This document shows, piece by piece, positions 5,693 to 33,392 of a DNA stretch of 64,000 bases. Position 1 is the first letter of the stretch, and each line of letters starts with the position of its first letter. The translations under genes and the position numbers were made by a program. This DNA comes from Amia ocellicauda. Lineage: Eukaryota; Chordata; Actinopteri; Amiiformes; Amiidae. The notes under the pieces were generated by a model that saw only the letters and a list, made by a program, of their open reading frames with translations, was not told where the DNA came from and searched no databases. The DNA lies in contig NC_089863.1 in assembly GCF_036373705.1 (NCBI RefSeq), forward strand, positions 6,485,357 through 6,549,356. The letters are read 5' to 3'.

Positions 5693-6106
5693 TGTAGTGC
5701 AGAGCATTATTAAAGAAGTTAACATATTAAAAACACTAAAAACAAAAACATAATTATGGTGAGTAGTTGTGCACATTCAATACATATATGTATACACACA
5801 CAATTTAATGTATTGACTTATAAAACGTAAAGTTTGTGATAATTGCGTGATGTTTCAGTTAGTGATTGTAAGATAATCCTATATTGCCCTCTAGGGGCTG
5901 GAATACATGTTAGCGAATCTAGTTGTTAAAAGTTGGACAACTCCTTACTTAATTTAATTGAACTGAAAATAAACCAGTGTATATTAAACTTAGCTGCACT
6001 GTCTTCACAATGATTTCTCTGAAATGCATGACTCTAACCCTCCCCTCTGTTTCTCAGTTAGTGCTGCATTGCCACACCGTGTGTCCAGTAGAGCAACATC
6101 AGCGCC

Positions 6107-6113
6107 ATGGCAG
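6107..6113 (+). CDS. Predicted first coding exon of the SPRY-SPRY-PYD gene (Met-Ala plus one base)
   Basis: ATGGCAG is followed at once by a strong donor, GTGAGTG, and preceded by GCGCC, a good initiation context. Joined to the acceptor at 9,287/9,288 it reads Met-Ala-Glu-Ser-Lys-Lys in phase with SPRY1. A pyrimidine-rich acceptor (ending TTTCTCAG at 6,057) suggests this exon begins at 6,058 with 5' UTR and that a further non-coding exon lies upstream. A seven-base coding part cannot be proven without a transcript. The alternative start is the Met nine residues into the next segment, inside exon 2. Confidence 0.6.
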
Positions 6114-6679
6114 GTGAGTGCTGTGTCCCAGGTGTAATGACTTTCTGGTACCATTGGTTCTGTCAAAGGGTTGAGAGTACCTTACATCAGTATTTATTTA
6201 ACCGCTGTATATAGGTCTAATTTTACAATGTATATGGAGTAGCGCACCTTTGGTGCCAAGTTCAAATGGTTATCTTTCAGTTTAAACAGCCACTAGTGTG
6301 AGTTATGTCCTAAAATCTCACTGAGCTGTATGACAGAGCTGCCAACAGGTCAGTGTGGAAACCCCTCTGCTTCTCAGGTTTATCTGTGCAGCTGAATGTC
6401 CTCTTTGCCTTATAACATGAGAATGATTGAAGAACAATTGAGGCTATTTTCTTCTTCGAGAACAGCCATTAGTATAGGATAGTGATGTGTACCCAGGCAT
6501 GTGGAAATGTGGAGAATAGTATCAGAAATGTTTTAAGAGAGGTGTCAAAATATGTTTTACTCTCCATCATTAAACTAGATTAACAAGGAAACAACAATAA
6601 GATCACAAACTACATTATAAAATAATATTTTACTATTTACCATTTGTGAAATATCACACTAACTCATTTTAAACAATTA

Positions 6680-6717
<38 letters not shown>

Positions 6718-7937
6718 TCACCTAAAGGATTATTAGGAACACCTGTTCAATTTCTCATTAATGCAATTATCTAACCAACCAATCACATGGCAGTTGCTTC
6801 AATGCATTTAGGGGTGTGGTCCTGGTCAAGACAATCTCCTGAACTCCAAACTGAATGTCTGAATGGGAAAGAAAGGTGATTTAAGCAATTTTGAGCGTGG
6901 CATGGTTGTTGGTGCCAGACGGGCCGGTCTGAGTATTTCACAATCTGCTCAGTTACTGGGATTTTCACACACAACCATTTCTAGGGTTTACAAAGAATGG
7001 TGTGAAAAGGGAAAAACATCCAGTATGCGGCAGTCCTGTGGGCGGAAATGCCTTGTTGATGCTAGAGGTCAGAGGAGAATGGGCCGACTGATTCAAGCTG
7101 ATAGAAGAGCAACTTTGACTGAAATAACCACTCGTTACAACCGAGGTATGCAGCAAAGCATTTGTGAATCCACAACACGTACAACCTTGAGGCGGATGGG
7201 CTACAACAGCAGACGACCCCACCGGGTACCACTCATCTCCACTACAAATAGGAAAAAGAGGCTACAATTTGCACAAGCTCACCAAAATTGGACAGTTGAA
7301 GACTGGAAAAATGTTGCCTGGTCTGATGAGTCTCGATTTCTGTTGAGACATTCAGATGGTAGAGTCAGAATTTGGCGTAAACAGAATGAGAACATGGATC
7401 CATCATGTCTTGTTACCGCTGTGCAGGCTGGTGGTGGTGGTGTAATGGTGTGGGGGATGTTTTCTTGGCACACTTTAGGCCCCTTATAGTGCCAATTGGG
7501 CATCGTTTAAATGCCACGGCCTACCTGAGCATTGTTTCTGACAATGTCCATCCCTTTATGACCACCATGTACCCATCCTCTGATGGCTACTTCCAGCAGG
7601 ATAATGCACCATGTCACAAAGGTCGAATCATTTCAAATTGGTTTCTTGAACATGACAATGAGTTCAATGTACTAAACTGGCCCCCACAGTCACCAGATCT
7701 CAACCCAATAGAGCATCTTTGGGATGTGGTGGAACGGGAGCTTCGTGCCCTGGATGTGCATCCCACAAATCTCCATCAACTGCAAGATGCTATCCTATCA
7801 ATATGGGCCAACATTTCTAAAGAATGCTTTCAGCACCTTGTTGAATCAATGCCACATAGAATTAAGGCAGTTCTGAAGGCGAAAGGGGGTCAAACACAGT
7901 ATTAGTATGGTGTTCCTAATAATCCTTTAGGTGAGTG

Positions 7938-7975
<38 letters not shown>

Positions 7976-10900
7976 GGCTCTCAAAAGTATTACTCCCTCA
8001 TGGACTTTATACACTCACCTAAAGGATTATTAGGAACACCATACTAATACTGTGTTTGACCCCCTTTCGCCTTCAGAACTGCCTTAATTCTACGTGGCAT
8101 TGATTCAACAAGGTGCTGAAAGCATTCTTTAGAAATGTTGGCCCATATTGATAGGATAGCATCTTGCAGTTGATGGAGATTTGTGGGATGCACATCTAGG
8201 GCACGAAGCTCCCGTTCCACCACATCCCAAAGATGCTCTATTGGGTTGAGATCTGGTGACTGTGGGGGCCAGTTTAGTACAGTGAACTCATTGTCATGTT
8301 CAAGAAACCAATTTGAAATGATTCAACCTTTGTGACATGGTGCATTATCCTGCTGGAAGTAGCCATCAGAGGATGGGTACATGGTGGTCATAAAGGGATG
8401 GACATGGTCAGAAACAATGCTCAGGTAGGCCGTGGCATTTAAACGATGCCCAATTGGCACTAAGGGGCCTAAAGTGTGCCAAGAAAACATCCCCCACACC
8501 ATTACACCACCACCACCAGCCTGCACAGTGGTAACAAGGCATGATGGATCCATGTTCTCATTCTGTTTACGCCAAATTCTGACTCTACCATCTGAATGTC
8601 TCAACAGAAATCGAGACTCATCAGACCAGGCAACATTTTTCCAGTCTTCAACTGTCCAATTTTGGTGAGCTTGTGCAAATTGTAGCCTCCTTTTCCTATT
8701 TGTAGTGGAGATGAGTGGTACCCGGTGGGGTCTTCTGCTTTTGTAGCCCATCCGCCTCAAGGTTGTACGTGTTGTGGCTTCACAAATGCTTTGCTGCATA
8801 CCTCGGTTGTAACGAGTGGTTATTTCAGTCAAAGTTGCTCTTCTATCAGCTTGAATCAGTCGGCCCATTCTCCTCTGACCTCTAGCATCAACAAGGCATT
8901 TTCGCCCACAGGACTGCCGCATACTGGATGTTTTTCCCTTTTCACACCATTCTTTGTAAACCCTAGAACTGGTTGTGCGTGAAAATCCCAGTAACTGAGC
9001 AGATTGTGAAATACTCAGACCGGCCCGTCTGGCACCAACAACCATGCCACGCTCAAAATTGCTTAAATCACCTTTCTTTCCCATTCAGACATTCAGTTTG
9101 GAGTTCAGGAGATTGTCTTGACCAGGACCACACCCCTAAATGCATTGAAGCAACTGCCATGTGATTGGTTGGTTAGATAATTGCATTAATGAGAAATTGA
9201 ACAGGTGTTCCTAATAATCCTTTAGGTGAGTGTATATACACACACCCACACACACACACAATAACTTTGTTTCCACCCCCCTTATAGAAAGTAAAAAGTA
9301 TTTGGATATGAAGGAGCTTGCGGAACAGATAGTGAAGCTGCAGGATCCTGACTTTCAGAAACCTGCCCAGCTTCACAAGTTGCTGGACATGCCACCTGCC
9401 GGCTTGGAAGTCCAGCTGCAACATGCCTGGGACAGAAAAGACCACTCTGGCAACATCTACATCAAGGATGACAAACTGACCTTCTACAGGAAACCTGTGA
9501 TGAACAGTACCGACTGCATCAGGGGCAAGGTGGGCTACACCAGAGGGCTGCACATGTGGGAGATCTACTGGCCCAGGGATCAGAGGGGGACACATGCAGT
9601 TGTGGGGGTGGCCACTGAGTACGCCCCCCTTTTCTCATTTGAGATTGAATCCCTGGTGGGCAGCAGCCGAGAGTCATGGGGCTGGGACCTGGGACGCAAC
9701 AAACTGTACCACGACAGCAAGAACCGACCAGGAGAAACTTACCCTAACATTCTGAAATCAAAAAAATTATTAGCAGTGCCCGACTCTTTGAAAGTGGTGC
9801 TGGACATGGATGAGGGGACCCTGAGCTTTATAGTGGATGAGCAGTATCTGGGAGTGGCCTTCAGGGGCCTCAAAGGGAAAAAACTGTATCCCATAGTCAG
9901 TGCAGTTTTTGGGAACTGTCAGGTCACAATGAGATACATTAATGGACTTAATGGTGAGTTCATGTTTCATTTATGGGTTATAGTTCTTACATGCAAAGGT
10001 TATACAAGTGTTGGAATTTGTAGACTGAGAGCAAGTCACATGTTGAAACACAGAATGTCTGGTCTTTGGGATAACAAAGAAATTAAGCTTTTATTGGCAA
10101 CCAGAGACACACAAACATGGCAATTGCAGGGCAATACAGTATACCGAATATTCAGAAGACAAAAGGGTCATGAATGCCTTGTAGCATAATTGACACAGAG
10201 CCGTACCAGTCACAGTGGTGAAGGAAATACAGGCTGTAATGTGTAAGCTAACATAGCAAGGGGTCCATAGTACGTATATAGTGCCATGTCATGTGTCATG
10301 TCCCACAGTGCACATTCATAAAAATTGCTGTAATTCCAAACTTAGTCATCGGACTGGTTTTCATGCATCTGGACTCAAAGGCAGTACAGAGTCTAAAACC
10401 AAGGCTCTCGTGGACGGAGCAACCTTCCAGAAGGTTGAGTCAGTGGCACCTCAGGCCCAACTTCCCACACGTCCGATGTCTGACAGAATGGCTCAGGCTG
10501 TTAAGTGTGCCATGACACTGCCAGGTGGAGATAGACTAATAGATTCATAGGCCAGTGTGACACCTTCAACATTCCAGTGGGATAGGTGCTGTTTAGACAG
10601 GGCATGACTCAGTATTCACTAATGATTCACTAATTAGAAAGACATCATATTTTACACACATTTACTAGTACTATTCTGTAGCTCATGATTATTAAAATAA
10701 CTTACAATAGATTCCAGTTACAATTTGTATGCTAACTCCCTTTGATATCCTAACCAGCAGAGTTATTTTTATCACTTTTAGAAAGTTATAGTATGATATT
10801 TAGTATATTTCCACACTCAGACTTTTTGCAGTTCTAAACAATGAAATACATACATTTTAAAAATCAAGATCTTTGGTAAATGCATTATCAAATTTAACTT

Positions 10901-13900
10901 ACTTAATGTTGCCCATGGTAAACAGGTGTATAATATATGGTTGCATCCAAGTACGAGCGTCTCTGATTTATTAAGGCCCTACCAAACGTGAGATTTGCTA
11001 ATTTGGGCAGAATCCCAGGCTGGGAGACGCACCTCTCTCTGTGATGGGCTGCTCTGTAGGGTTGCCACCTGACCCCGCAATCACAGGACATTTTGAGACA
11101 AAACGGGGTTTAAAATGAGAGGCTAAATTGAAATAAATGAACGTGTTAATTATCCCTATAGCTTTACTAAAATGAATCTGGTTGCTGAATGACTGAGCAA
11201 CAAACATGTCATTGTGATGATAAGTTCAAATCCTGCCTCTGAAACGCTGAGCAAAGTTACTGAATACAAGAGTAATGAGGTAAATTAAATTTTCGATAGA
11301 GCCCTGTGTTCTAAAGACTAATTTAATATATAAATATAATTAAGTTTGGTCAGACGTGCTAACGTGCAGTGTTTTAAAGCCAGGTGGCAGACATGCATCA
11401 GGGGAGCAGATAAGAGACCCATCCCTACTTCCCTTACAAATAAAATAGTTAAAAATAACACTAAATGGCTTCTTACTTTAACTGAGCATAAAAAACAATG
11501 TATTTTAATTTAAAATGCTTCGGCTGCGAAAAGTAACTTTACAAAAGTTTACAAAAAATAATGAAGTTTGGACCCTGTGGTGGCTGAGCGTTGATCCTGA
11601 TCAAATGGAAGTGTAAACGCAACACCACTGATCCTGATCAAGTGTTCTGATGCATTTGATCCGGGTCAGAAATGGCAAATGTGCCTATTGTCATTTTGTG
11701 ACATCACACACTCTCGCTCTTCCGAGTAGTGAAAAAGTTTTAAATTGAGTAAAAAATGTGTCGAACAACACATTTGCTTTTTTCCATCTTGTAAGCAACG
11801 GATATGAATGAAACTTTCAGCCACCTTCTAATGAATGAAACTATATATGACACTCCAGCTGTAAAGCACTGTAAGGCACACTTTCTCATTGTTGTGAAAA
11901 TAGGTATGAATTGTAGTAGGCTAGTTTTAGACTTTAGTTTATCCTCATGCTATTTTTTGTCAGGGTCACTTGGGTCATAGGATGAAGGAAATCCATCTTT
12001 TAAAGTATGTAGGCAGCGGCAGCGTTTTGTGGGCTACTGCAATAGTGTCAGTGGGCTTTTTCCTGTCCATCCTCTCATAGTCTAAAACCCAGTCACAGGT
12101 GACTCGCCACTTGCTTGAATTGCTTTAGTTTTCACGTCATTATTCAAATAACCATTTCAAAAGTGGGCGTGGTTAGCAATTCAGGGACTGGAGCTGCCAC
12201 TGGTTACAAATGCTCATGTGGAGAACATATGATGGGGGGCTGGGGGCAAATTGACAGGGATGGATTGGCGTGCTCCCAATGTTCTGGCCAAGTTTACCCC
12301 AATAGTTTCTTATAATTTGGCCTATTGTTTTGATATCCTCTTTAGATAACTGGGCCCTCTGAAACTACCTTTACAATGGAAGGACATTTTCTCAGTTCAC
12401 TGTGATTGGTTGTTTATTTACTACAGTATTCGTGATTCACTTCACTTCTGAATATATTAGTTGCAAATACTATTTATAAACAATTACGTGTGTAATAAGG
12501 TCCTTGTAAAGCTTTATTCTGTGCCAGTAAATGTCTTATTTTGTGATTGTTATTGAGTGTCATGCCGGGGAACACCAGAGGTATTGGACCCAAGTGCAGA
12601 GCTCAGGAGACTGGTCAGGTCAAGTGAGATGTCAAGACACAAAACAAGACTTAGCAGTGAACTCTGGAGACAAAGGGACTTATATGCTAGTGTTGATGAG
12701 CTGGGGAGATTGGAAACCAGTCTGTTAATTAACAGGGAACAGGATCCATTGACCTTAATTAGTTTCAATTTAGCTGAATAACTATGGGAAACAGAGTTGA
12801 GGCTTGGGAAAAAGGTTACATCTAGTGGTGATTTGGGGAATTGTCAGACAGGGAATGTCACAGTGAGCACTTAAAAACATACATAATAGTTTAACTCTAA
12901 TATAAAGTGTTTCCCAATTTTATATATAGCTACCAAATGTATATTGCTGATTCGTTTTGAAAGGAATAAAGAAGGGAAAAATTTCAATAAGAATATAGAA
13001 TTTTAAGTTTGAGTTCATAATAAATACAGAAACTACAAGATTGCAAGTTCTGCACCTATCCATTGTATCCTTGTGTGGTAGTTCTACTAACTACTTATAA
13101 AGTAGTATTACTCTTATAAAGGAAGGTCTCTTTTAGATCATCATCTTGGTCTTCAGTTGTTCTATGTATTATGTGTTCTCATTTAGTTTTGTTTGTTTGA
13201 TTATGTCTTCCCTTTTATAAGATGCACTCTTTTCTCATTCATTTATTCAAACAGTCCAATCCCATAAGACTCAGGATGATGACTTGGACTCGGACACAGA
13301 CACTGATGACTCGGACTCAACTGACATTCAAGGTTTGAGTACTGAACTCATCTCAACAAGTCTGATATATTCAGGCTGGTTTTCTATTCATCCAACTATT
13401 TGAATTACTCCTTAAATTAAAACAGACTTCATTATTAATTTACCAGAAGTTTCCATAGATGTACGAAATACCATCCTCAATGCCAACAATGTTCAGTAAG
13501 TCTTTCTCTTAGTGAAATGACATGTTGGTGCAGTATAATTAAGTTTCATAGCAGAAACTCTTATCCAGGGCCACTTACATCACATTTTTTTTCTTGCATA
13601 CAACAATGTATACAGCTGGGTTTTTACTAGAGCAATCCTGGTACAGTGCCTTACTTAAGGGTACAACACCAGTGTCCCCCAAACTTGGATTGAACCCATG
13701 AGACCAGTTAAGTCCAGAGCCCTAACCACTACTCCACACTGCTGCCCAGATACGAATAACAGGGTCAACACTTAATAATCGTTGCAGTCTCTCTCTAAAG
13801 ACATGTCTTTGTTTTTAGCAACACAATCCCTCCTCCACCTTCCCATAACAAATGTTATTATGCTCCAGAAATGCATAAATCCTTAGGTTCCCAGGACTGG

Positions 13901-15493
13901 AAATTGGTGGAGACAATGTATATAAAAAAAGAAAACATTTTGCTAAAATATATGTATTTTGTGTACCAAAAGCTGGTACATTGAAGCTATAGAGCAAATA
14001 TTCATTATGAATGAATTTTGGCAACAAGCTTTTCTGAAATATGAAGAGGGTACCACTGAGATCGGTCCTGGGAGCTAAACAGGGCAAATTGTAGACATTT
14101 GCAGGGACAGCTCCACATATAATCATTAGGGCTATATAAATAAATAAATTCCATGACTTTAAATAAATAAATAACAAAACAATGCTCTCTCTTTTCCCCC
14201 TGCCATCGCTTTCACAGAGACTAAAAAGACTGTGCGTGTTAAGAAGCTTAGGCACCGGCTGCAAGGTCCCAACTTTTGCAAGCCACCCCGCCTTGACCAA
14301 CTACTTAAAGAAATGCCTGCCAAACTAGAGGTCCAGCTGAAACACGCCTGGAACAACGAAGACCGCTCGAGCAACATTGTCATCAAGGAGGACAAACTGA
14401 CCTTCCAAAGGAACACCATGTCTGAGAGTACCGACTGCGTCAGGGGCCGGAAGGGCTACACCAGAGGGCTGCACGTGTGGCAGATCTACTGGCCCCTGGA
14501 TGAGAGGGGGACACACGCAGTGGTGGGGGTGGCAACTGAGGACGCACCCCTCTACTCATTTGAGTATACCTCCCTGGTGGGGAACAACCCAGAGTCATGG
14601 GGGTGGAATCTGAGAGACAACAAACTGTACCATGACAGTGAGAGTAAACCAGGAGAGACTTACCCTGCAATTCTCAAACCAAATGAGCATTTAATGGTGC
14701 AGAATCCCTTGCTGGTGGTGCTGGACATGGACGAGGGTACGCTGAGCTACATGGTGATGGGGATGTATCTGGGCGTGGCCTTCGAGGGCCTCAAAGGGAA
14801 GAAACTGTATCCCATAGTCAGCGCAACAAAGGGGAACTGTCATGTCATGCTAAGATACACCCACGGACTTGATAGTAAGTGAATTATTTGTTTGTTAATG
14901 GGTCACAAATCACACTTCAGAAACCTGTGCACTTCATACACTTCTTAGGTTTGTTCTGGAAGTGTTCTGCTTGTAACCGAGTGCCAATACACAAGCTTAG
15001 AGCATTGGTTGAATGGAAAAACCATCAGCGGGTCTTATAAACACAAAAGTATTTAGTAAGTAGAACATCAGAAATTCTTGTGTAGGGCTTTAGCTACTTG
15101 TACTAAATAATCACTGTAAAGCAGAAATTACAGTTAAACTGGTGTTTCTCAACACACTGCTCTGGTTAAACCAACCTCCTTTTCTTTGCAGCAGGGGAAG
15201 ACCCGATCACAGAGGGGTACTGGAAGAGGGCTCTGACTGAAATCCTGGAGGATCTACAAGAAAGAGAGCTGAAGAAACTGAAGTCACTGCTGAACAACCA
15301 AACAGCACGCAAGTCTATCCCCAAGGGGAGGCTGGAGGGGACCGATCACCAGGACCTGGCAGAGCTGGTGGTGGAGAAATGGGGTGTGCAGGACTCCATT
15401 GTTGCCATGAAGGAGATGCTGGAGAGAATCCCACGCAATGACGAGAATGTGCTGCGGCTGCTGAGGCCTTTCCTTGACCCGCACGCTCAATAG
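6107..15493 (+). CDS. SPRY-SPRY-PYD protein (two SPSB-type SPRY domains plus C-terminal pyrin domain), multi-exon
   Basis: Predicted join: 6107-6113, 9288-9953, 13255-13332, 14218-14874, 15192-15493, giving 1,710 nt and 569 residues. Every junction is GT/AG and every intron is phase 1, so the joined frame stays open. Exon 1 is only ATGGCAG, and a possible 5'-UTR acceptor ends at 6057. Domains: SPRY1 about residues 45-222; an acidic Asp/Ser linker at 225-250; SPRY2 about 288-467; PYD about 482-564. The SPRY domains carry SPSB hallmarks ([44 protein letters not shown]). Known SPSB proteins use SPRY to bind short Asn-rich peptides and a SOCS box to recruit Elongin-Cullin5. No SOCS box is seen. 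PYDs self-associate in inflammasome signalling. Inferred role: a cytosolic adaptor in innate immunity. The domain calls are firm; exon 1 and the linker exon are predictions. Confidence 0.8.
6685..6714. repeat. (TA)n at the Tc1/mariner insertion site
   Basis: A TA run directly abuts the DD36E element starting at 6,715 and supplies its TA target site. Confidence 0.9.
6715..7937 (+). mobile_element. Tc1/mariner element, DD36E type, copy A
   Basis: The 1,223-bp element has terminal inverted repeats of about 29 bp starting CACTCACCTAAAGGATTATT and is flanked by TA on both sides (6,713-6,714 and 7,938-7,939). It lies in intron 1 of the SPRY-SPRY-PYD gene, in the same orientation as the gene. The same family occurs as copies B (8,012), C (24,399) and D (32,118). 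Confidence 0.95.
6863..7905 (+). pseudogene. Tc1/mariner DD36E transposase, frameshifted (copy A)
   Basis: The frame starts at the family Met ([13 protein letters not shown]), with a helix-turn-helix DNA-binding region at about residues 20-60 and the first catalytic Asp in WSDESRF. After LGPL a 2-base TA insertion near 7,486 (CCTTATAGTG against CCTTAGTG in intact copies) creates a TAG stop and shifts the frame. The remainder continues in another frame with QQDNAPCHK and [11 protein letters not shown] to a stop at 7,905. A full-length protein cannot be made. It is otherwise very close to the intact copies, so inactivation is recent relative to divergence. Confidence 0.9.
7938..8011. repeat. 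(TA)/(CA)n spacer plus Tc1-type terminal scrap
   Basis: Between the two DD36E elements lie TA/CA repeats and about 40 bases (CAGTGGCTCTCAAAAGTATT and on) that look like the end of a different Tc1-like element, so several elements have landed at the same spot. Confidence 0.6.
8012..9232 (-). mobile_element. Tc1/mariner element, DD36E type, copy B, inverted relative to copy A
   Basis: Same terminal inverted repeats and TA flanks (8,010-8,011 and 9,233-9,234) as copy A but in the opposite orientation, only 74 bp away. Its end is 55 bp upstream of the exon-2 acceptor of the SPRY-SPRY-PYD gene (9,287/9,288), so the branch point and polypyrimidine tract must lie in the remaining short gap. Confidence 0.95.
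8044..9084 (-). pseudogene. Tc1/mariner DD36E transposase with nonsense mutation (copy B)
   Basis: The frame is intact from [13 protein letters not shown] through WSDESRF and [10 protein letters not shown], then stops at residue 254 where the intact copies have Arg. CGA has become TGA, a CpG-type transition, near 8,323. The downstream part, including the catalytic Glu region SPDLNPIE, is still readable in frame. The protein would lack its third catalytic residue. Confidence 0.9.
9288..9953 (+). CDS. Exon 2 of the SPRY-SPRY-PYD gene: SPSB-type SPRY domain 1
   Basis: The 666-bp phase 1-1 exon sits between acceptor CCCCCCTTATAG and donor AATG|GTGAGT. It encodes residues 3-224: a short helical leader ([11 protein letters not shown]), the SPSB-like lead-in [17 protein letters not shown], then the whole SPRY fold. 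Features shared with SPSB1/4-type SPRY include [56 protein letters not shown] and [15 protein letters not shown]. The Trp that SPSB proteins usually have in the loop after SAV is Phe here (SAVFGN), and the Tyr of the Y-x-x-L segment before VGS is Ile. The canonical DINNN-type ligand may therefore be bound differently; that is inference. Confidence 0.9.
9954..13254 (+). other. Intron 2 of the SPRY-SPRY-PYD gene
   Basis: Bounded by a strong GTGAGT donor and an ACAG acceptor. I find no exon-like frame with domain similarity inside. A TGTCA-bounded segment (12,558-12,862, starting TGTCATGCCGGGGAACACC and ending GGGAATGTCAC) may be an unclassified interspersed repeat, but no convincing target duplication was found. 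Confidence 0.6.
13255..13332 (+). CDS. Predicted exon 3 of the SPRY-SPRY-PYD gene: acidic linker
   Basis: A 78-bp phase 1-1 exon between TTATTCAAACAG and AAG|GTTTGAGT encodes 26 residues dominated by Asp, Ser and Thr ([15 protein letters not shown]). Such acidic, serine-rich tracts act as flexible spacers and often as casein kinase 2 targets. The length is a multiple of three, so it could be skipped without frame loss. The donor is weaker than the others, so this exon is a good but unproven call. Confidence 0.65.
13447..13495 (+). other. Possible alternative exon or decoy, 49 bp
   Basis: This segment lies between TTTACCAG and a strong GTAAGTC donor. It reads open from phase 1 but ends in phase 2, and the next certain exon (14,218) requires phase 1. 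Including it would shift SPRY2 out of frame unless another exon follows; a possible acceptor TTTTTAG ends at 13,818. It may be a poison exon, part of an alternative isoform or chance. Confidence 0.3.
13551..13747 (-). mobile_element. tRNA-derived SINE with L2-like tail
   Basis: On the minus strand the head reads GGGCAGCAGTGTGGAGTAGT then GGTTAGGGC (box A-like), with GGGTTCAATCC as box B. The tail (AAGTGGCCCTGGATAAGAG) matches the 3' end of the L2 LINEs elsewhere in this window (for example 43,008-43,040). SINEs are copied by a LINE that shares their tail, so L2 is the likely partner. It lies in an intron of the SPRY-SPRY-PYD gene. Confidence 0.8.
14218..14874 (+). CDS. Exon 5' to PYD exon of the SPRY-SPRY-PYD gene: SPSB-type SPRY domain 2
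   Basis: A 657-bp phase 1-1 exon between CGCTTTCACAG and GATA|GTAAGT encodes about residues 251-469. It starts with a basic stretch ([13 protein letters not shown]) and repeats the layout of SPRY1: [88 protein letters not shown]. By eye roughly two thirds of positions match SPRY1, so it is a tandem exon duplicate. It keeps the Tyr of the YTSL segment that SPRY1 lost, but has SATKGN where SPSB proteins have SAVWG. The two domains may therefore recognise different ligands. Confidence 0.9.
15192..15493 (+). CDS. Last exon of the SPRY-SPRY-PYD gene: pyrin (PYD/DAPIN) domain
   Basis: The exon begins after TTCTTTGCAG and runs to a TAG at 15,491-15,493, encoding 99 residues. After a short [10 protein letters not shown] linker comes a six-helix death-fold pattern typical of [23 protein letters not shown] (helices 1-2), [20 protein letters not shown] (helix 3 and 4 region), then [21 protein letters not shown] (helices 5-6) shown here only as landmarks. 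The acidic/basic surfaces used in PYD-PYD filaments (Glu/Asp in helices 1 and 4, Lys/Arg in helices 2-3) are present. A tandem acceptor CAGCAG allows splicing three bases later without frame change. PYDs sit at the N-terminus in NLRP and ASC proteins; here it is C-terminal. Confidence 0.85.
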
Positions 15494-16097
15494 CACAACA
15501 GCTCAGACCAGAGCACGTCAGAACCGGACCGCTGGGGTCAGATTAATAATCCCTAAGGCAGTGTTCCGCAATGTATTTATTACATGGGCACGAATCTGGC
15601 GGTCCGGGGGGAGGGGCGGGTGGATGTTGCGGTTAACTGTGGTCCGCAGAGGATGACGGGGTGCAGGTAGTGCGGTTGGGACCAATAAGGCACTTCAACA
15701 AAAAAAAAGGGAAGCGTCGCTACATAGATATGTGCTTATGAACATGCAGAGGATCTCTGAAGCTGCGGACACCAAAAGCTGTATTTTTATTTTGGTAACT
15801 GCAACTAAAAGTCTGTAATTTTGCTGGACTTGAGCACCTGTTCCACAGACACATCATTCAGAAACTGCTCTGCTCAATCTGTCACTATGCTGCATGTTTG
15901 TGTGTGAGAGTGCCTGACAAATATTGTTTGTTTAGCTTTTGCAGTGCATTATTGGAATAAAAACGTGGTGCTTTTTCCCCTCAAGAAACTTTGTTTATTA
16001 AAAATGTACAACAAGCATTGCAGGCACAGCAGACACCTCTTAAGGGCACGAAAATGCCAGTGGGCACGACTTTGCGGACCACTGCCCTAAAGCATTC
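15494..16097 (+). promoter_or_regulatory. 3' UTR of the SPRY-SPRY-PYD gene with poly(A) signal supplied by a hAT copy
   Basis: The first AATAAA downstream of the stop is at 15,956-15,961, inside the inserted hAT element. I see no AATAAA between the stop and the element, so the present transcript may end within transposon sequence. Confidence 0.5.
15559..16084. mobile_element. Non-autonomous hAT element in the 3' UTR
   Basis: 526 bp with terminal inverted repeats CAGTGTTCCGCAA and, inverted at the right end, CAGTGGTCCGCAA. The flanking 8-bp target duplications are CCCTAAGG (15,551-15,558) and CCCTAAAG (16,085-16,092), differing at one base. No transposase frame is present. CAGTG ends plus an 8-bp duplication are diagnostic of hAT. 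Confidence 0.85.
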
Positions 16098-18216: not shown

Positions 18217-20462
18217 TTAACTGAAGCTCTTTCCACTTTGGGAGCTGCTGTGCAATTTCTTTCGTATGTGACTGAACTGGTGACGTTTAAGGTTTGATGC
18301 ACCAGTGAAGCACTTCCCACACTGGGTGCAGCTGAACGGTTTCTCTCCTGTGTGAATGCGCTGGTGATATTTAAGGGTTTCTGCCTGAGTGAAGCACTTC
18401 CCACACTGGGTGCAGCTGTACGGTTTCTCTCCTGTATGAATGTGCTGGTGACATTTAAGCTGTACTGCCTGAGTGAAGCACATCCCACACTGGGTGCAAC
18501 TGTAAGGTTTCTCTCCCGTGTGAATGCGCTGGTGAGATTTAAGCTGGGTTGCCCGACTGAAGTTCTTCCCACACTGGGAGCAGCTATATGGTTTCTCCCC
18601 TGTGTGAACGTGCTGGTGAGATTTAAGGCTTCCTGATGTAGTAAAGTTCTTCCCACACTGGGTACAGCTGAACGGTTTCTCGCCTGTGTGAATGCGCTGG
18701 TGAAATTTAAGGGTTATTGCCTGAGTGAAGCTCTTCCCACAATGGGTGCAGCTGTACGGTTTCTCCCCTGTGTGGATGCGCTGGTGAGATTTAAGGCTTC
18801 CTGATGTAGTAAAGTTCTTCCCACACTGGGTGCAGCTGTACGGTTTCTCTCCTGTGTGAATGCCCTGGTGATATTTAAGGGTTCTTGCATTACGGAAGTT
18901 CTTCCCACACTGGGAACAGTTGTACGGTTTCTCCATGGTGTGGATGCGCTGGTGAGATTTAAGTCTTCCTGATGCATTGAAGCACTTCCCACACTGGGTG
19001 CAGCTGTACGGTTTCTCTCCTGTGTGAATGCGCTGGTGAATTGTCAGATTTCTTGCACAACTGAAACTCGTCCCACACTGGGAACAGTTGTACGGTTTCT
19101 CCCCTGTGTGGATGCGCTGGTGAGATTTAAGGCTTGATGCCTGAGTGAAGCACTTCCCACACTGGGTGCAGCTGTACGGTTTCTCTCCTGTGTGAATGCG
19201 CTGGTGATATTTAAGGGTTCTTGCATTACAGAAGTTCTTCCCACACTGGGAACAGTTGTATGGTTTCTCTCCTGTGTGAATGCGCTGGTGAGATTTAAGG
19301 CTTGATGAATGAGTGAAGCACTTCCCACACTGGGTGCAGCTGTACGGTTTCTCTCCTGTGTGAATGCGCTGGTGATATTTAAGGGTTCTTGCATTACGGA
19401 AGTTCTTCCCACACTGGGAACAGTTGTACGGTTTCTCCCCGGTGTGAATGCGCTGGTGATATTTAAGGCTTCCTGATGCAGTGAAGTTCTTCCCACACTG
19501 GGTGCAGCTGTACGGTTTCTCTCCTGTGTGAATGCGCTGGTGAGATTTAAGGCTTGATGAATGAGTGAAGCACTTATCACACTGGGTGCAGCTGTACGGT
19601 TTCTCTCCTGTGTGAATGCGCTGGTGAGATTTAAGGGTTCTTGCATTACAGAAGTTCTTCCCACACTGGGTGCAGCTGTGCGGTTTCTCTTCTGTGTGAA
19701 TGCACTGGTGAATTGTCAATTTTGCTGCCTGACTGAAGCTCTTCCCACACTGGGTGCAGCTGTGCACTCTTTTCCTTGTAAGAATGCATTGGTGTTTTTT
19801 TAAGCTTCCATAATTCCTATACATTTTCTCACACTGGGGGCAGCGATGGTAGCCCAGAGTTTTCCTACTTGTGTTTGAGGGAGGGGGGTCAGAGCTGGAG
19901 GGTCCAGGATGCTGTCTGGACTGTGAAGATGGGCTCTCACCCCTCACTGCACTGTCACTGCCTCCACTGAGCCCCGTCCTCAAGGCAACAGAATCAGTGT
20001 CACACAGTCCATCTACTGGGAGCTGTGGTTCTAGTTTACAGAGGCCTCCTGTAATATTCTCTATTCTAAGATTACAGGGTTCATCTTTCAAAACTGTATG
20101 CATTTCCCACTCCAGCTCATTGTCCTCTGTCTTAATGTGAACAGACGCAACACTGGGCTCACACTGTGTACTGGTAGAGTCTGGCTCAACACCAGCTGCA
20201 CTGGGTCCACACTCAGATCCCAGTGCCCTGAGTCCCTGTGTTAAACCCACAGTCTGTGGCTCCACCATGTGGCCAGACTCCAGTCCACTGAGCTCCATTT
20301 CACTGTGTCTGCTCCCGTGCTGCTCAGACAGACTCTTGTTGTCTTCAGTAGCTGTGGGCTCTGTGTCCTGCCTCAGACTGGAGCCCCACTCCTGCTCACA
20401 GGGCTGCTGCTCAGTGGGAGACCTTTTCCCAGAGTCAGGGAAGGTGGTGTCTTCTACAGCTC
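18217..20462 (-). CDS. Finger exon of ZNF-1 (18 intact C2H2 fingers)
   Basis: The frame stays open upstream of the internal Met at 20,298 to an acceptor (CTTGTCCTCCTCCAG) at 20,463, so that Met is not the true start. The linker holds a SUMO-type motif (IKTE) around VHIKTED. A first degenerate finger ([21 protein letters not shown]) has lost its last His. Then come 18 canonical C2H2 fingers joined by TGEKPY/F linkers, then a degenerate [10 protein letters not shown] before TAA. Fingers repeat in near-identical modules ([36 protein letters not shown]), showing tandem finger duplication. DNA contact positions vary mildly between fingers. Confidence 0.9.
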
Positions 20463-23400
20463 CTGGAGGAGGACAAGACAGGAGAGCAGATCAGAATTAG
20501 GGCATCCCGGCAATTAATCACGCAAAATAAGTCACATGTCATTGCCTTACAAATGACATGAATAAAACTCCTTAGAGCCCTTCAGAGCTCTTAATAAATC
20601 ATACATAACAGATACAGCATGTACAGTGAGGGAAAAAAGTATTTGATCCCCTGCTGATTTTGTATGTTTGCCCACTGACAAATAAATGATCAGTCTGTAA
20701 TTTTAATGGTAGGTGTATTTTAACAGTGGAAGACAGAATAACAACAAAAAAATTATAAATTGATTTGCATGTTAATGAGGGAAATAAGTATTTGATCCCC
20801 TATCAATCAGCAAGATTTCTGGCTCCCAGGTGTCTTTTATACAGGTAACGAGCTGAGATTAGGAGCACTCTCTTAAAGGGAGTGCTCCTAATCTCAGCTC
20901 GTTACCTGTATAAAAGACACCTCTCCACAGAAGCAATCAATCAATCAGATTCCAAACTCTCCACCATGGCCAACACCAAAGAGCTGTCCAAGGATGTCAG
21001 GGACAAGGTTGTAGACCTACACAAGGCTGGAATGGGCTACAAGACCATCGCCAAGCAGCTTGGTGAGAAGGTGACAACAGTTGGTGCGATTATTCGCAAA
21101 TGGAAGAAACACAAAATAACTGTCAGTCTCCCTCGGTCTGGGGCTCCATGCAAGATCTCACCTCGTGGAGTTTCAATGATCATGAGAACGGTGAGGAATC
21201 AGCCCAGAACTACACGGGAGGATCTTGTTAATGATCTCAAGGCAGCTGGGACCATAGTCACCAAGAAAACAATTGGTAACACACTACGCCGTGAAGGACT
21301 GAAATCCTGCAGCGCCCGCAAGGTCCCCCTGCTCAAGAAAGCACATGTACAGGCCCGTCTGAAGTTTGCCAATGAACATCTGAATGATTCAGAGGGGAAC
21401 TGGGTGAAAGTGTTGTGGTCAGATGAGACCAAAATCGAGCTCTTTGGCATCAACTCAACTCGCCGTGTTTGGAGGAGGAGGAATGACCCCAAGAACACCA
21501 TCCCCACCGTCAAACATGGAGGTGGAAACATCATGAAAATGGGTTGTGGATGGGGATCCAGCATGACAATGACCCAAAACACACAGCCAAGGCAACAAAG
21601 GAGTGGCTCAAGAAGAAGCACATTAAGGTCCTGGAGTGGCCTAGCCAGTCTCCAGACCTTAATCCCATAGAAAATCTGTGGAGGGAGCTGAAGGTTCGAG
21701 TTGCCAAACGTCAGCCTCGAAACCTTAATGACTTGGAGAGGATCTGCAAAGAGGAGTGGGACAAAATCCCTCCTGAGATGTGTGCAAACCTGGTGGCCAA
21801 CTACAAGAAACGTCTGACCTCTGTGATTGCCAACAAGGGTTTTGCCACCAAGTACTAAGTCGAAGGGGTCAAATACTTATTTCCCTCATTAACATGCAAA
21901 TCAATATATAACTTTTTTGAAATGCGTTTTTCTGGATTTTGTTGTTATTCTGTCTCTCACTGTTAAAATTACCATTAAAATTATAGACTGATCATTTCTT
22001 TGTCAGTGGGCAAACGTACAAAATTCCCTCACTGTATGCAATTAAGAAAATAAAACCCAGTCACTTACTATCCATTTTGATTTAGATTAAATACTTAATG
22101 TCCTACATAAATAAAACCCCAATACAGCTATTAATAAATTATACATAACAGATACAGTATGTATGCAATTAAAAAAATAAAACCCGGGTATCCTGTGACC
22201 ATCCCATATCCATGTAGATGGAAGATCAGCAAAAAGCTGATCTTCATCAATGCAATGCTCGTATTGACACAATGCAAAACAAGTTGGCGGATATTGAGGA
22301 CAGAAACCGTTGCTGCAACTAACGGAGGGAGTGGAGGGCAATGAACCAGTTCATTTTCTTCAACAACTAATCCCTCGTTGGTTCCCAGATCTGCAACCAA
22401 AAGGCTCCCGTATTGAGCAGAGCACACAGAACCTATTCCGATGCTCCAAAGAGTCCAGCCGTCCTTGCACTTTGATTTTCCAGTGCCTCTGTTACACTGA
22501 CCAACAGCGCAGCCTTCAAGCTGGTCGCACATCAGATGCAGTTATTGTCCAAGTCGGAAATTAGCCGTCTGTGTGGATTACTCTGCTGTCACTGCTGTGA
22601 AGAGAAAGGCGTTTGGACCGGTCAGGGCAAGGCTCTGCCCCCACAGAGCAGAACATTTCCTGGTGTCTCCTGTTGCTCTGAAAGTCAACCACGGCGGGAC
22701 CCGGCTCTGACAAATATCCCTATTATATTGGCTGGGGATTTCAATTGGCTATTTGATCCAGTGTTGGATACATCATACTCTTCACCCACACAATCTCCCA
22801 AATTACCCAATTTCTACAGGAAAGCTCAGCAAGCTCAGCACCCCTCTGACAGAGATTATACTTATTTTCAGGTAGACATAAAACATATAGCAGAATTGAC
22901 ATTATATTAGGATCTTACAACATGTTGCACTACCGACAGTCAACATACATTTTAAAACAGGCTGAACAATTTGCTTCTATAGATGCAATCATAGACAAAA
23001 CCGAAAGGGTGGTTTCTCAACCAGAGCAAGTTAACCAAATCAAATCATTCTACTCTCAGCTGTATTCATCAGAGCAGATATCAGAATGGCTTAAAAACTC
23101 TAGATTCAGTATTGTATATCAGTACCAGTATATCAGTATTTTTAAATCCTCTAGAATTACCCTCACTGTCTCCTGAACAAGCTTCAATGCTAGATATGCC
23201 TCTTACACTACAGGAGCTTGAAGATGTGGTTTGCTCTATGAATAGAGGCCGTGCCCCAGGTTTAGATTACTTGTCTCCAGAAGTTTTATAGAAACAGGTT
23301 GGCCCCATTCTTCTAAATTCCCTTAATGTTTCAATAGAAATTGTCTCGTTACACAGAGACCACAAACCAGCGCTGCTCTTTCTTCTTTTAAAGAAGAGGG

Positions 23401-24354
23401 AGGAACCCTAAAAAAGTTCTTAAATGCAGATATAAATGTATATGGCAAATGTTTAGTCCGAAGGTTGGAATCATGCATTCACTGTCTGATCCAGCATGAT
23501 CAGACTCTGATGAACAAGATGTTCTAAATGTCTAAATTAGTATTTCACAAAGGTTTTTACAAAAGAAAAAACAGACAACAAGCCACAGGTTAAGAATCAG
23601 TCCAGGTCAAACCCTAAGAGAGATCAGGATAAATGAGGAGGAGGTACTAAAGGGACTAGCAGAATTAAAAACAAACAAATCACCTGGGCCAGATGGGATA
23701 CTTCCAACAGTACTTAAAGAAAGGAGGGAAAATATTTATAGGCCGCTAACTAAAATATTCCAAATGACACTTAGAACAGGGGATGTGCCAACTGACTGGA
23801 AGACAGCAAATGTCATACCAATCCACAAGAAAGAGGACAAAACTGAGCCAGGAAATTACAGACCAATCAGTCTCACCTGCATCACCTGTAAAATGTTGGA
23901 GAAAATGCTTAGACTTGATCACTTTTATGATATTATTTTAGAAAGATCCAAAGCTCGACTAAACTCAGCCTCTGCTAGGAGTTTGGTTGCATGGGACTCT
24001 GCTGTTGAGTTACACAACTTTTAAGTTTCTTTTACTGCTTTAAATACAACTGAGGGGGAGGGTGAATATGGTTAATGTCCGTTTCTATTAACAATAAAAA
24101 AAAACAGTTGTTAAAACAAAAATAAAACCCAGTCACTTACTGTTTCTTTTGATTTAGATGGAAAACGTATTGATGTCCTACAACATAAATAAAACCCCAA
24201 TAGAAAACAAACCAAAAAACAAGCAAACATGGGAATGTTTCCATAGCACTGGATTTTTGGACAACAATATATTTGAATGGTTATGCGTTACTTATGGTAT
24301 CACACTTATCAATCAAGCTATAAAAAAATACATAAAAGTGTGATGAATACATAT

Positions 24355-24396
<42 letters not shown>

Positions 24397-25616
24397 CACA
24401 CTCACCTAAAGGATTATTAGGAACACCATACTAATACTGTGTTTGACCCCCTTTCGCCTTCAGAACTGCCTTAATTCTACGTGGCATTGATTCAACAAGG
24501 TGCTGAAAGCATTCTTTAGAAATGTTGGCCCATATTGATAGGATAGCATCTTGCAGTTGATGGAGATTTGTGGGATGCACATCCAGGGCACGAAGCTCCC
24601 GTTCCACCACATCCCAAAGACGCTCTATTGGGTTGAGATCTGGTGACTGTGGGGGCCAGTTTAGTACAGTGAACTCATTGTCATGTTCAAGAAACCAATT
24701 TGAAATGATTCGACCTTTGTGACATGGTGCATTATCCTGCTGGAAGTAGCCATCAGAGGATGGGTACATGGTGGTCATAAAGGGATGGACATGGTCAGAA
24801 ACAATGCTCAGGTAGGCCGTGGCATTTAAACGATGCCCAATTGGCACTAAGGGGCCTAAAGTGTGCCAAGAAAACATCCCCCACACCATTACACCACCAC
24901 CACCAGCCTGCACAGTGGTAACAAGGCATGATGGATCCATGTTCTCATTCTGTTTACGCCAAATTCTGACTCTACCATCTGAATGTCTCAACAGAAATCG
25001 AGACTCATCAGACCAGGCAACATTTTTCCAGTCTTCAACTGTCCAATTTTGGTGAGCTTGTGCAAATTGTAGCCTCTTTTTCCTATTTGTAGTGGAGATG
25101 AGTGGTACCCAGTGGGGTCTTCTGCTGTTGTAGCCCATCCGCCTCAAGGTTGTACGTGTTGTGGCTTCACAAATGCTTTGCTGCATACCTCGGTTGTAAC
25201 GAGTGGTTATTTCAGTCAAAGTTGCTCTTCTATCAGCTTGAATCAGTCGGCCCATTCTCCTCTGACCTCTAGCATCAACAAGGCATTTTCGCCCACAGGA
25301 CTGCCGCATACTGGATGTTTTTCCCTTTTCACACCATTCTTTGTAAACCCTAGAAATGGTTGTGCGTGAAAATCCCAGTAACTGAGCAGATTGTGAAATA
25401 CTCAGACCGGCCCGTCTGGCACCAACAACCATGCCACGCTCAAAATTGCTTAAATCACCTTTCTTTCCCATTCAGACATTCAGTTTGGAGTTCAGGAGAT
25501 TGTCTTGACCAGGACCACACCCCTAAATGCATTGAAGCAACTGCCATGTGATTGGTTGGTTAGATAATTGCATTAATGAGAAATTGAACAGGTGTTCCTA
25601 ATAATCCTTTAGGTGA

Positions 25617-25661
<45 letters not shown>

Positions 25662-28600
25662 TAGTTTAAATTCACAAAAAAACAAAAATACCAAATTAGA
25701 TAATTATTTGTGACAGAACTTTTTCACTTCTGAAACCATATCTGTCATCTGCTCTAATGTAGGGATGAGTTTAAGGAAAACATCAAGTTCTTTCAAAACT
25801 TACTTTTCTCAAAGCACATTTCTTATGACTTGGTCAGATGTTCATATACAGGGGGAGTCCTAGAAGTGCTCTTGGAAGGATTGAAAACAATGATACTGTT
25901 TTTAACAAAACAACAAGACTGTCTTGCAGCACAAGAGGCACATTTCAATTTCTCACAGTGAAAATATGTATATAGGATTGTGACTCAGAACCATCCAGAC
26001 TAGGAACGCAGCCAATCTGGCGCACAAAAGAGTAAAAATAAACTGAAGAAAAACAAGCACAAGGGAAAGGTATTCTAATATTAGTTGATTATGCTTAGTT
26101 TGTATTGCTGAACAGTAGGTTGCTTGCATGACAACTGTTGTAATGATGACTGCAGTCAATGAGTAGCTGGCTGTATGGTTTTATTAAACTGGGTAGTCCA
26201 AGTTCACCTTACCTACCACCAAATAGCGTTTTATTGTAACATGGTGGCTGTGTATTTGCATCTTTAGCTAATTTTACTTTGAATAGGATCTGCAAGAGTT
26301 TGTTCATTTGTTTATTTTTGCTGTAAAAATATGTGCTAGACTGCTACATAGTTCTGCAACATCAATGATCAAGTTATCTAATTAGTAAGTTAATATCGGC
26401 AAATGGGATTTGGCAATTGTACTTGCTAGGTCGAACTGTGGGTCGCGCTGCAAGGGGGGTGCGTCAAGGAAGGCTCGAGCTAGTTAGAGTTAAAAAAATT
26501 AGATAATTGAAATATACATTAAACATATAAAATAACTCCAATAATAATAACAAAGCAACAGTGACGTTTTTGTACAGTGTCTTGGGTGAAAAAAGCAGCT
26601 GTTGAGCAGAGCACAGGCGAAAAGCTGCCACCCGACTGCAGATGTCCACCAGCCCCTGCCCCCACTCTTCTATGGGAAGATACAAGACAGCCGGCCACAG
26701 CCAATGATGACCGTCCCTAAAGAAATTCAATAACTCAGTTTGAATGACCTGAAGCAGCCCCGGGGGAGGATCCAAACAGGCCAGCCTGTGCCAAAGCATT
26801 GAGGCAACCAAATTGTTTATGACAAGAACCCCCTTTGGCAAAAGCCATGTCCAGCTACACAGCCTCTTCTTAACATTGTCCCCAACCCCTCCCAGTTCTT
26901 CTGTTCACACTGTTGCCCCCCAAGAAACACCCCTAACACCATCATGCCAGTTTTCTCCCAATGCAGCTGTTCTGGCAAAACTGGGGCACCTACACCACTC
27001 CACCGACCCAGCAGCAAAGTTGTGCACTTCCCCCAGTTCACTTTAGCAGAAGAAGCCTTTCCAAATATATTCAAACTGTCCTTCACTGCTGCCACATCAG
27101 CCTGATTAGTATTAAAAATAGTCACATCATCAGCATAAGCTGAAAGTTTGAGAGGAGAAGCAGTGGGCACAGAGGGCAGGGCCAGGCCGGTTAGACGGGT
27201 CCGCAACAGACACAGCAGGGGTTCAATTGCCAAGGAATACAACATTCCAGAAAGAGGGCAACCCTGACGAATCCCCCGCTGATCAATGGAAAGAATCCCC
27301 ATATCCAGGTTAAAAAGCTGACCAATAGTTAAAATGTCTCTAACAAAAAATATATTATCAGCTATCCGCTAAAAATCTAGGAGTCACTCTCGATCCTCCT
27401 ACCCCCAGCACATCACCACGCTGACATGCACCTGTAGATTCTTCCTGAGCAACATACGCCGGATCCATCCCTTCCTCACCGACTACTCGACTCAGCTGCT
27501 CGTCCAGTCACTGGTCCTCTCCCGCCTGGACTACTGCAACTCCCTCCTGCCAGCCTGCCTGCATCCACTACCCGCCGCTCCAGCTCATCCAGAACTCTGC
27601 GGCTCGTCTGGTTTTCTCTCTGCCCCGATTCACACGCTACTCCACTGCTCCGCTCCCTCCACTGGCTCCCGATACCGGCACGCATTCAGTTCAGGACTTT
27701 CACCCTCACCTACCGCTGTCTCACCACACTGCACCAAACTACCTTCAGACCCTCGTCTCTCCATACATCCCCTCCAGACCACTGCGTTCCTCCAGTGCCA
27801 GAAGACTAACTCTGCCTCCTCTCCACTCTCCTTCCTCCAGAGCCGCTCCTTCTCATCCCTGAACCCTAAATGGTGGAACGACCTGCCCACCGAAGTCAAA
27901 ACAGCAGAGTCCCTGACCTCATTCCGGCGCTACTTGTACTTGTAATATTACTGAACTGTATTTTTGCACTTTGTTTTGCACTTATGTTGTAAGTCGTCCT
28001 GGATAAGGGCATCTGCCTAGAAATATTATTATTATTATTATTATTAATAATGTGAGCTTGTGCATTAAAGTATCTCTTGGTTATTTTGGTTATTCTTATT
28101 ATTTGGTTAGGTCGAGTTCACTCTCCTCCGTGTCCGTTTGTGTTTCTGATGCACATTTCATGCCGCATCCGTAGTGTAGTGTAATGACGAAAAATATTGC
28201 CGTAAAGAATACGATTTGCGGCATCACGATATAAACGATAGAGCATAATATGAAACGGTAAACGTTTTTCTATCGTCATACGATATATACAATGAGGGAA
28301 AAAAGTATTTGATCCCCTGCTGATTTTGTATGTTTGCCCACTGACAAAGAAATGATCAGTCTATAATTTTAATGGTAGGTGTATTTTAACAGTGAGAGAC
28401 AGAATAACAACAACAAAATCCAGAAAAACGCATTTCAAAAAAGTTATAAATTGATTTGCATGTTAATGAGGGAAATAAGTATTTGATCCCCTATCAATCA
28501 GCAAGATTTCTGGCTCCCAGGTGTCTTTTATACAGGTAACGAGCTGAGATTAGGAGCACTCTCTTAAAGGGAGTGCTCCTAATCTCAGCTCGTTACCTGT

Positions 28601-31600: not shown

Positions 31601-32071
31601 ACCTGTAAAATGTTGGAGAAAATGCTTAGACTTGATCACTTTTATGATATTATTTTAGAAAGATCCAAAGCTCGACTAAACTCAGCCTCTGCTAGGAGTT
31701 TGGTTGCATGGGACTCTGCTGTTGAGTTACACAACTTTTAAGTTTCTTTTACTGCTTTAAATACAACTGAGGGGGAGGGTGAATATGGTTAATGTCCGTT
31801 TCTATTAACAATAAAAAAAAACAGTTGTTAAAACAAAAATAAAACCCAGTCACTTACTGTTTCTTTTGATTTAGATGGAAAACGTATTGATGTCCTACAA
31901 CATAAATAAAACCCCAATAGAAAACAAACCAAAAAACAAGCAAACATGGGAATGTTTCCATAGCACTGGATTTTTGGACAACAATATATTTGAATGGTTA
32001 TGCGTTACTTATGGTATCACACTTATCAATCAAGCTATAAAAAAATACATAAAAGTGTGATGAATACATAT

Positions 32072-32115
<44 letters not shown>

Positions 32116-33335
32116 CACACTCACCTAAAGGATTATTAGGAACACCATACTAATACTGTGTTTGACCCCCTTTCGCCTTCAGAACTGCCTTAATTCTACG
32201 TGGCATTGATTCAACAAGGTGCTGAAAGCATTCTTTAGAAATGTTGGCCCATATTGATAGGATAGCATCTTGCAGTTGATGGAGATTTGTGGGATGCACA
32301 TCCAGGGCACGAAGCTCCCGTTCCACCACATCCCAAAGATGCTCTATTGGGTTGAGATCTGGTGACTGTGGGGGCCAGTTTAGTACAGTGAACTCATTGT
32401 CATGTTCAAGAAACCAATTTGAAATGATTCGACCTTTGTGACATGGTGCATTATCCTGCTGGAAGTAGCCATCAGAGGATGGGTACATGGTGGTCATAAA
32501 GGGATGGACATGGTCAGAAACAATGCTCAGGTAGGCCGTGGCATTTAAACGATGCCCAATTGGCACTAAGGGGCCTAAAGTGTGCCAAGAAAACATCCCC
32601 CACACCATTACACCACCACCACCAGCCTGCACAGTGGTAACAAGGCATGATGGATCCATGTTCTCATTCTGTTTACGCCAAATTCTGACTCTACCATCTG
32701 AATGTCTCAACAGAAATCGAGACTCATCAGACCAGGCAACATTTTTCCAGTCTTCAACTGTCCAATTTTGGTGAGCTTGTGCAAATTGTAGCCTCTTTTT
32801 CCTATTTGTAGTGGAGATGAGTGGTACCCAGTGGGGTCTTCTGCTGTTGTAGCCCATCCGCCTCAAGGTTGTACGTGTTGTGGCTTCACAAATGCTTTGC
32901 TGCATACCTCGGTTGTAACGAGTGGTTATTTCAGTCAAAGTTGCTCTTCTATCAGCTTGAATCAGTCGGCCCATTCTCCTCTGACCTCTAGCATCAACAA
33001 GGCATTTTCGCCCACAGGACTGCCGCATACTGGATGTTTTTCCCTTTTCACACCATTCTTTGTAAACCCTAGAAATGGTTGTGCGTGAAAATCCCAGTAA
33101 CTGAGCAGATTGTGAAATACTCAGACCGGCCCGTCTGGCACCAACAACCATGCCACGCTCAAAATTGCTTAAATCACCTTTCTTTCCCATTCAGACATTC
33201 AGTTTGGAGTTCAGGAGATTGTCTTGACCAGGACCACACCCCTAAATGCATTGAAGCAACTGCCATGTGATTGGTTGGTTAGATAATTGCATTAATGAGA
33301 AATTGAACAGGTGTTCCTAATAATCCTTTAGGTGA

Positions 33336-33392
<57 letters not shown>

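Follow-up and report, generated by a model that had tools for sequence, protein, structure and literature searches.

Does Amia ocellicauda encode, in a single gene, a protein in which two SPRY domains of the SPSB type are followed by a C-terminal pyrin domain (PYD), and what might such a protein do? The question is raised by a stretch of 64,000 nucleotides of its genome (NCBI RefSeq assembly GCF_036373705.1, contig NC_089863.1, positions 6,485,357 to 6,549,356 of the forward strand), here called the window, in which exons between positions 6107 and 15493 join to form one open frame of 569 residues followed by a TAG stop codon. The product is encoded in the order SPRY, acidic linker, SPRY, PYD. 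At the DNA level this architecture is real, and it is probably that of one protein.

Predicted exon structure and encoded domains

A first-pass annotation of this DNA had proposed that phase-1 GT/AG exons join to a single frame of 569 codons, and this was borne out. Five coding segments (6107-6113, 9288-9953, 13255-13332, 14218-14874 and 15192-15493, all on the + strand) make up the frame, and the four introns between them are all GT-AG and uniformly of phase 1. The first coding exon (6058-6113) consists of 49 bases of 5' untranslated sequence and the coding bases 6107-6113; its ATG at 6107 stands in the context GCCATGG, with two in-frame TAG stops just upstream. It is preceded by a cag acceptor ending at 6057 (acceptor rank 99.7 per cent), and an additional 5' exon upstream of 6058 is likely. 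Exon 2 (9288-9953, 666 bases) encodes the first SPSB-type SPRY (SPRY1), exon 3 (13255-13332, 78 bases) an acidic linker rich in Ser and Asp, and exon 4 (14218-14874, 657 bases) the second SPSB-type SPRY (SPRY2), each of them being of phase 1-1. Exon 5 (15192-15493) encodes the PYD and the stop codon and possesses a NAGNAG alternative acceptor at 15195, use of which gives 568 residues, or 569 codons when the stop is counted. A candidate polyadenylation signal (AATAAA, 15956-15961, + strand) lies 463 bases past the stop.

When scored with consensus frequencies against the 646 GT and 694 AG sites found on the + strand between 5 and 16 kb, the splice sites of the model have ranks of 86.8 to 99.9 per cent. 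Those of the linker exon are the lowest ranked (donor GTTTGA, 86.8 per cent; acceptor, 92.4 per cent). As the lengths of exons 2, 3 and 4 are divisible by three and each is of phase 1-1, skipping of the linker would retain both the reading frame and the SPRY-SPRY-PYD order. No further copies of the gene were identified in the window by tblastn, the next match having an E value of 1.3.

Pfam analysis of the product, a check that the first-pass annotation had itself proposed, gave matches far above cut-off to SPRY (E 6.7e-40, in two stretches) and PYRIN. Both SPRY domains are of the SPSB type, as had been claimed, and more closely of the SPSB1/2/4 type, with SPSB1, SPSB4 and gustavus as their best relatives of solved structure (E 1.1e-79 to 6e-95). 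SPRY2 has 57-66 per cent identity with 15 matches of the SPSB type, and its fold agrees with that of the SPSB family. Up to E 1, no Pfam match to SOCS_box, PRY or B-box was found in the product, nor was there one to NACHT; apart from SPRY and PYRIN, the scan reported just a DED match below threshold. A hidden SOCS exon was also looked for by comparing three fish SOCS boxes with the window, which returned nothing significant (best tblastn E 0.074, at 54.4 kb).

The C-terminal PYD scores 48.1 bits (E 1.3e-12) in the Pfam analysis and 52.4 bits in a second comparison, against a PYRIN cut-off of 22.9, and its predicted structure (pLDDT 82) is PYD-like. PYDs head the 50 Foldseek rows shown for this model (probability 1.00, best E 3.6e-3); the first death-effector row appears at rank 35, with a few PYD rows beneath it. 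When aligned to NLRP3, the domain keeps the counterparts of E15, K23, K24 and D50 and has Lys in the place of R43; the pairing of these residue numbers with those of ASC is assumed here. In ASC, residues E13, K21, R41 and D48 contribute to the type-I contact, and alanine at any one of them disrupts filaments and specks (PMC7830601, in part). With these type-I charges kept, the domain looks able to enter PYD filaments.

Searches with the PYD part alone covered 202 candidates of one length range, where no match reached E 1e-3, and 36 candidates of another, where three matches reached E 10, none of them with a SPRY domain. These are P0121 of Embiotoca (40 per cent identity, E 4.6e-9), P0122 of Astyanax (E 1.5e-4; an AIG1 protein with its PYD at the C-terminus) and P0123 of Synaphobranchus (E 6, not significant), all of which are presumably from fish.

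Instead of one gene, SPRY1 and SPRY2-PYD might represent two adjacent genes, or exons 2 and 4 might serve as alternative or independent cassettes, the main product then containing a single SPRY. In keeping with this, the inner exons are all of phase 1-1 and could be swapped in frame, the splice sites of the linker exon are weak, and an in-frame ATG lies within exon 2, ahead of its SPRY. Against it, an in-frame ATG upstream of the encoded domain is missing from the SPRY2, linker and PYD exons, which hence have no start of their own. The + strand of the window was also scanned from position 301 to 63700 for single coding start exons of at most 300 bases; among the phase-1 ATG exons there, none but that at 6107 has a donor score of at least 8.8. 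Within the 4.26 kb between the SPRY exons, 12 candidate start exons of phase 1 are present at a donor score of at least 0, but only one reaches a score of at least 2 (12562-12613, score 2.2), where the rate for the window predicts 4.4, and none reaches 6. The scan favours one gene. On this evidence two genes, or a cassette arrangement, would be unlikely, and a SPRY-SPRY-PYD protein from a single gene can be predicted with good confidence.

Probable duplication, exon border and ligand site of the SPRY domains

SPRY1 and SPRY2 are 64 per cent identical. The dN/dS ratio between them is 0.53-0.65 by four methods, with third codon positions the least alike, which points to constraint, though not strong. 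In a tree of 24 rows (both SPRY domains and 22 of the 120 listed matches to the whole product, hand-picked for having organism names) the two domains cluster with support of 99/98, although both are long branches, which the tool flags as unsure. Their terminal branches measure 0.44 and 0.52 against a median of 0.067, and the tree leaves their placement relative to SPSB1 and SPSB4 unsettled. Each domain also lacks one residue of the motif KEDDKLTF. Given the shared grouping and this shared loss, SPRY1 and SPRY2 most likely arose by duplication of a single SPRY that was already altered.

The end of the SPRY domains offers an indication of how the SOCS box may have been lost. The whole-product search scored the 7991 candidates sharing most words and yielded 604 matches, 120 of which were listed. 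Following the GLD motif at the end of the SPRY, 69 of these 120 continue into a SOCS box and 37 into R, with nine reading otherwise and five lacking the motif. In the 37, the residues after GLD are RK (32 records), RE (two), RS, RR and RT (one each), and two of them (P0034 and P0071) carry a SOCS-like stretch further on. Since C followed by GT AAG or GT GAG reads as RK or RE, these records indicate an intron of phase 1 immediately behind GLD. Both SPRY exons of the Amia gene end at GLD in phase 1, that is, at the same residue and phase as the apparent intron of the SPSB-type matches. The simplest reading would be that, at this conserved phase-1 intron, other exons took the place of the SOCS-box exon.

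The residues by which SPSB proteins recognise their ligands are partly altered. In SPSB1, the NNN motif is contacted by Arg77, Thr111, Tyr129, Val216 (through its carbonyl) and Gly218, all of which bind it, and by Trp217, which packs against it; Pro79 is located in loop B, and the hydrogen bonds at the peptide site come mostly from the main chain (PMC2923778, in part). At positions 77, 79, 111, 129, 216, 217 and 218, all 120 listed matches read R P T Y V W G. SPRY1 reads R P T I V F G, with Tyr129 and Trp217 changed, and SPRY2 reads R T T Y T K G, with Pro79, Val216 and Trp217 changed; Arg77, Thr111 and Gly218 are unchanged in both. The conserved residues of the (D/E)(I/L)NNN peptide site are therefore not fully kept and, judged by these residues and by the SOCS box, the product would fall outside the SPSB family proper.

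Changes in the two domains crowd in the ligand loops. The loop set (63, 64, 77, 79, 80, 111, 125-129 and 216-218, each widened by one to four residues on either side, the main figures being for two) was drawn from the contacts and loop residues given in PMC2923778 and was chosen after the list of changes was known. At 120 near-invariant columns, SPRY1 is changed at 13 of 32 loop positions and nine of 88 elsewhere (p 0.0004); for SPRY2 the loop count is 14 of 32, compared with 20 of 88 for the other columns (p 0.023). The two tests are not independent, owing to common ancestry, and the 120 matches are also mutually related. Over all widths, p ranges from 0.00037 to 0.0015 for SPRY1 and from 0.0065 to 0.026 for SPRY2 with the 120 sequences, and from 0.00016 to 0.0016 and 0.0033 to 0.032, respectively, with the 22 hand-picked ones. 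Departures among the 120 matches themselves are not loop-crowded (19 of 104, loops making up 0.27 of the columns). The seven ligand-site residues taken alone show no enrichment for change (p 0.61 for SPRY1 and 0.39 for SPRY2).

Thirteen of the changed invariant positions are common to both domains, and where SPRY1 and SPRY2 differ from each other, the loops are not favoured (14 of 35 against 63 of 181), from which it appears that much of the loop remodelling probably predates the duplication. A new ligand for the SPRY domains is suggested by these changes. The old (D/E)(I/L)NNN motif may still be bound to some degree, since both domains retain Arg77 and Gly218 and the site draws most of its hydrogen bonds from the main chain.

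Related proteins and possible function

With SPSB1, SPSB4 and gustavus, the product shares the SPRY type, the fold of SPRY2 and the exon end after GLD at phase 1. It differs from them in having two SPRY domains, an added PYD, no SOCS box that could be found, and changes at two (SPRY1) and three (SPRY2) of the seven ligand-site residues.

The comparisons made by the first-pass annotation had omitted pyrin (MEFV, TRIM20), which also combines a PYD and a B30.2/SPRY domain within one protein but in the reverse order, the PYD being N-terminal and the B30.2 C-terminal (PMC4852459, in part). MEFV further differs in possessing a zinc finger and a B30.2 like that of fish TRIM proteins, not of SPSB; in contrast to pyrin and TRIM proteins, the Amia product has neither a B-box nor a PRY ahead of its SPRY domains in Pfam up to E 1. 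The NLR-B30.2 proteins of fish are likewise innate-immune proteins, and their groups 1 and 2a combine death-fold domains with B30.2 (PMC4852459, in part). The Amia product differs from these in lacking a NACHT match, in carrying its PYD at the opposite end and in the SPSB type of its SPRY domains, the NLR B30.2 having been compared by description only.

Two other fish proteins resemble it in the position of the death-fold domain. In the AIG1 (GIMAP-like) protein P0122 of Astyanax, the PYD is C-terminal behind another domain, and the motif IPRND is common to both proteins; P0122, the record of which is a partial prediction, has an AIG1 GTPase in place of the SPRY domains. Residues 325-393 of P0122 form this PYD, which gives fish a second predicted architecture ending in a PYD. 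Zebrafish Gbp4 likewise has a C-terminal death-fold domain and works through an inflammasome, but it combines a GTPase with a CARD and not SPRY with PYD (PMC4932187, in part). The domain order had been put forward as one known from no characterised protein. This holds in that no SPRY-SPRY-PYD relative was seen among the matches listed; the C-terminal position of the PYD is less unusual than supposed, in view of P0122 and Gbp4. No protein combining SPRY and PYD was present among the 120 listed matches, in searches that rely on shared exact words of five residues within limited length ranges and could miss a diverged ortholog. No published account of the architecture was found in the literature searched, which covered few subscription journals.

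As to function, the first-pass annotation had envisaged an adaptor in which PYD signalling replaces ubiquitin-ligase recruitment. The replacement is in line with the missing SOCS box and with the exon-border route described above; the term adaptor is less secure, as the changed loops fit a sensor of a new ligand at least equally well. The best overall explanation, tentative and put at slightly under an even chance, is a single host gene derived from an SPSB1/4-like ancestor, the SPRY domains of which sense a ligand and the PYD of which seeds ASC. An SPRY exon of such an ancestor would have been placed behind a separate start exon, becoming a phase 1-1 cassette that was then duplicated within the gene, and the SOCS-box exon would have been swapped for a PYD exon at the phase-1 intron that is conserved behind the SPRY. 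Lacking a SOCS box, such a product would not be expected to recruit Elongin/Cullin5. Its two SPRY domains might bind a pathogen protein or an altered self protein, distinct from the classical (D/E)(I/L)NNN motif; multivalent binding would crowd the C-terminal PYD, and the crowded PYD could nucleate ASC PYD filaments, leading to caspase-1-type signalling. If the SPRY-SPRY-PYD protein is made, a role as an ASC-seeding sensor is slightly favoured.

The same protein could have the opposite effect, the PYD acting as a decoy or dampener in the manner of pyrin-only proteins by binding ASC or another PYD and halting filaments, with the SPRY domains setting its location. The type-I charges of the PYD are compatible with this, the solved pyrin-only proteins cPOP1 and ASC2 are among the structural matches of the PYD model, and the SPSB1 adaptor has been described to control NF-kappaB activation (PMC6985365, in part). 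Two SPRY domains and a length of 569 residues are nevertheless judged to be more in keeping with a sensor gated by a ligand than with a short decoy, and no sequence feature was found in favour of this role, which is regarded as unlikely. More improbable still is a PYD that acts outside the inflammasome, for example in binding microbial lipid or solely in making a SPRY scaffold self-assemble: the PYD of zebrafish caspy2 binds LPS, so that fish PYDs are not limited to ASC (PMC6076302, in part), but the kept type-I charges are compatible with PYD-PYD contact, though they do not prove it. A decaying gene or a chance joining of unrelated exons, to which the repeat-rich surroundings, the fast evolution of both SPRY domains and the lack of a relative of the same architecture in protein searches of limited sensitivity might point, is very improbable in the face of 569 codons without a stop, consistent phases, splice sites that rank well apart from those of the linker exon, and a dN/dS below 1 between SPRY1 and SPRY2.

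Genomic surroundings and wider meaning

Outside the gene product, intron 1 holds two Tc1-like elements side by side in opposite orientation (6714-9235, ends approximate and read by eye). Transposase-like ORFs of the first are split over two frames (6863-7489 and 7390-7905, + strand), and those of the second lie in one frame interrupted by an in-frame stop (8323-9084 and 8044-8322, - strand). Unlike this broken pair, the Tc1-like copies found at 24431-25471 and 32150-33190 each have an uninterrupted frame of 346 codons. A direct repeat with a spacing of about 7.7 kb (21310-29226 and 29001-36957) aligns over 7957 columns at 99.4 per cent identity, with seven mismatches and four gap openings, and holds transposase-like and reverse-transcriptase-like ORFs; it would be a true duplication of very recent date or one introduced by the assembly. 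Two C2H2 zinc-finger arrays are encoded on the - strand, one in a single frame (18217-20490, 757 residues) and one in two overlapping ORFs (49612-51029, 293 and 193 residues), and by eye both have a related leader sequence. Neighbouring ORFs on the - strand at 60622-62168 have by eye a transposon-derived look and are presumably of the hAT kind. In zebrafish, multi-zinc-finger genes are interspersed among NLR-B30.2 genes (PMC4852459, in part).

Taken furthest, the proposal is that a substrate receptor of ubiquitin ligase, of the SPSB type, became an inflammasome sensor when a PYD exon replaced its SOCS exon at a phase-1 intron of ancient origin; ligand loops that are fixed from insects to mammals would then have been freed for a new, probably pathogen-driven ligand. 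This full course of events is possible but somewhat doubtful. Were it true, exon exchange would have made a danger sensor from a degradation receptor, and inputs to the inflammasome could be recruited from the ubiquitin system. The protein would also enlarge the group of fish proteins that end in a death-fold domain, with a PYD geometry unlike that of the NLRPs. As both the ancestral ligand motif and its site are structurally known, the change of ligand is directly testable.

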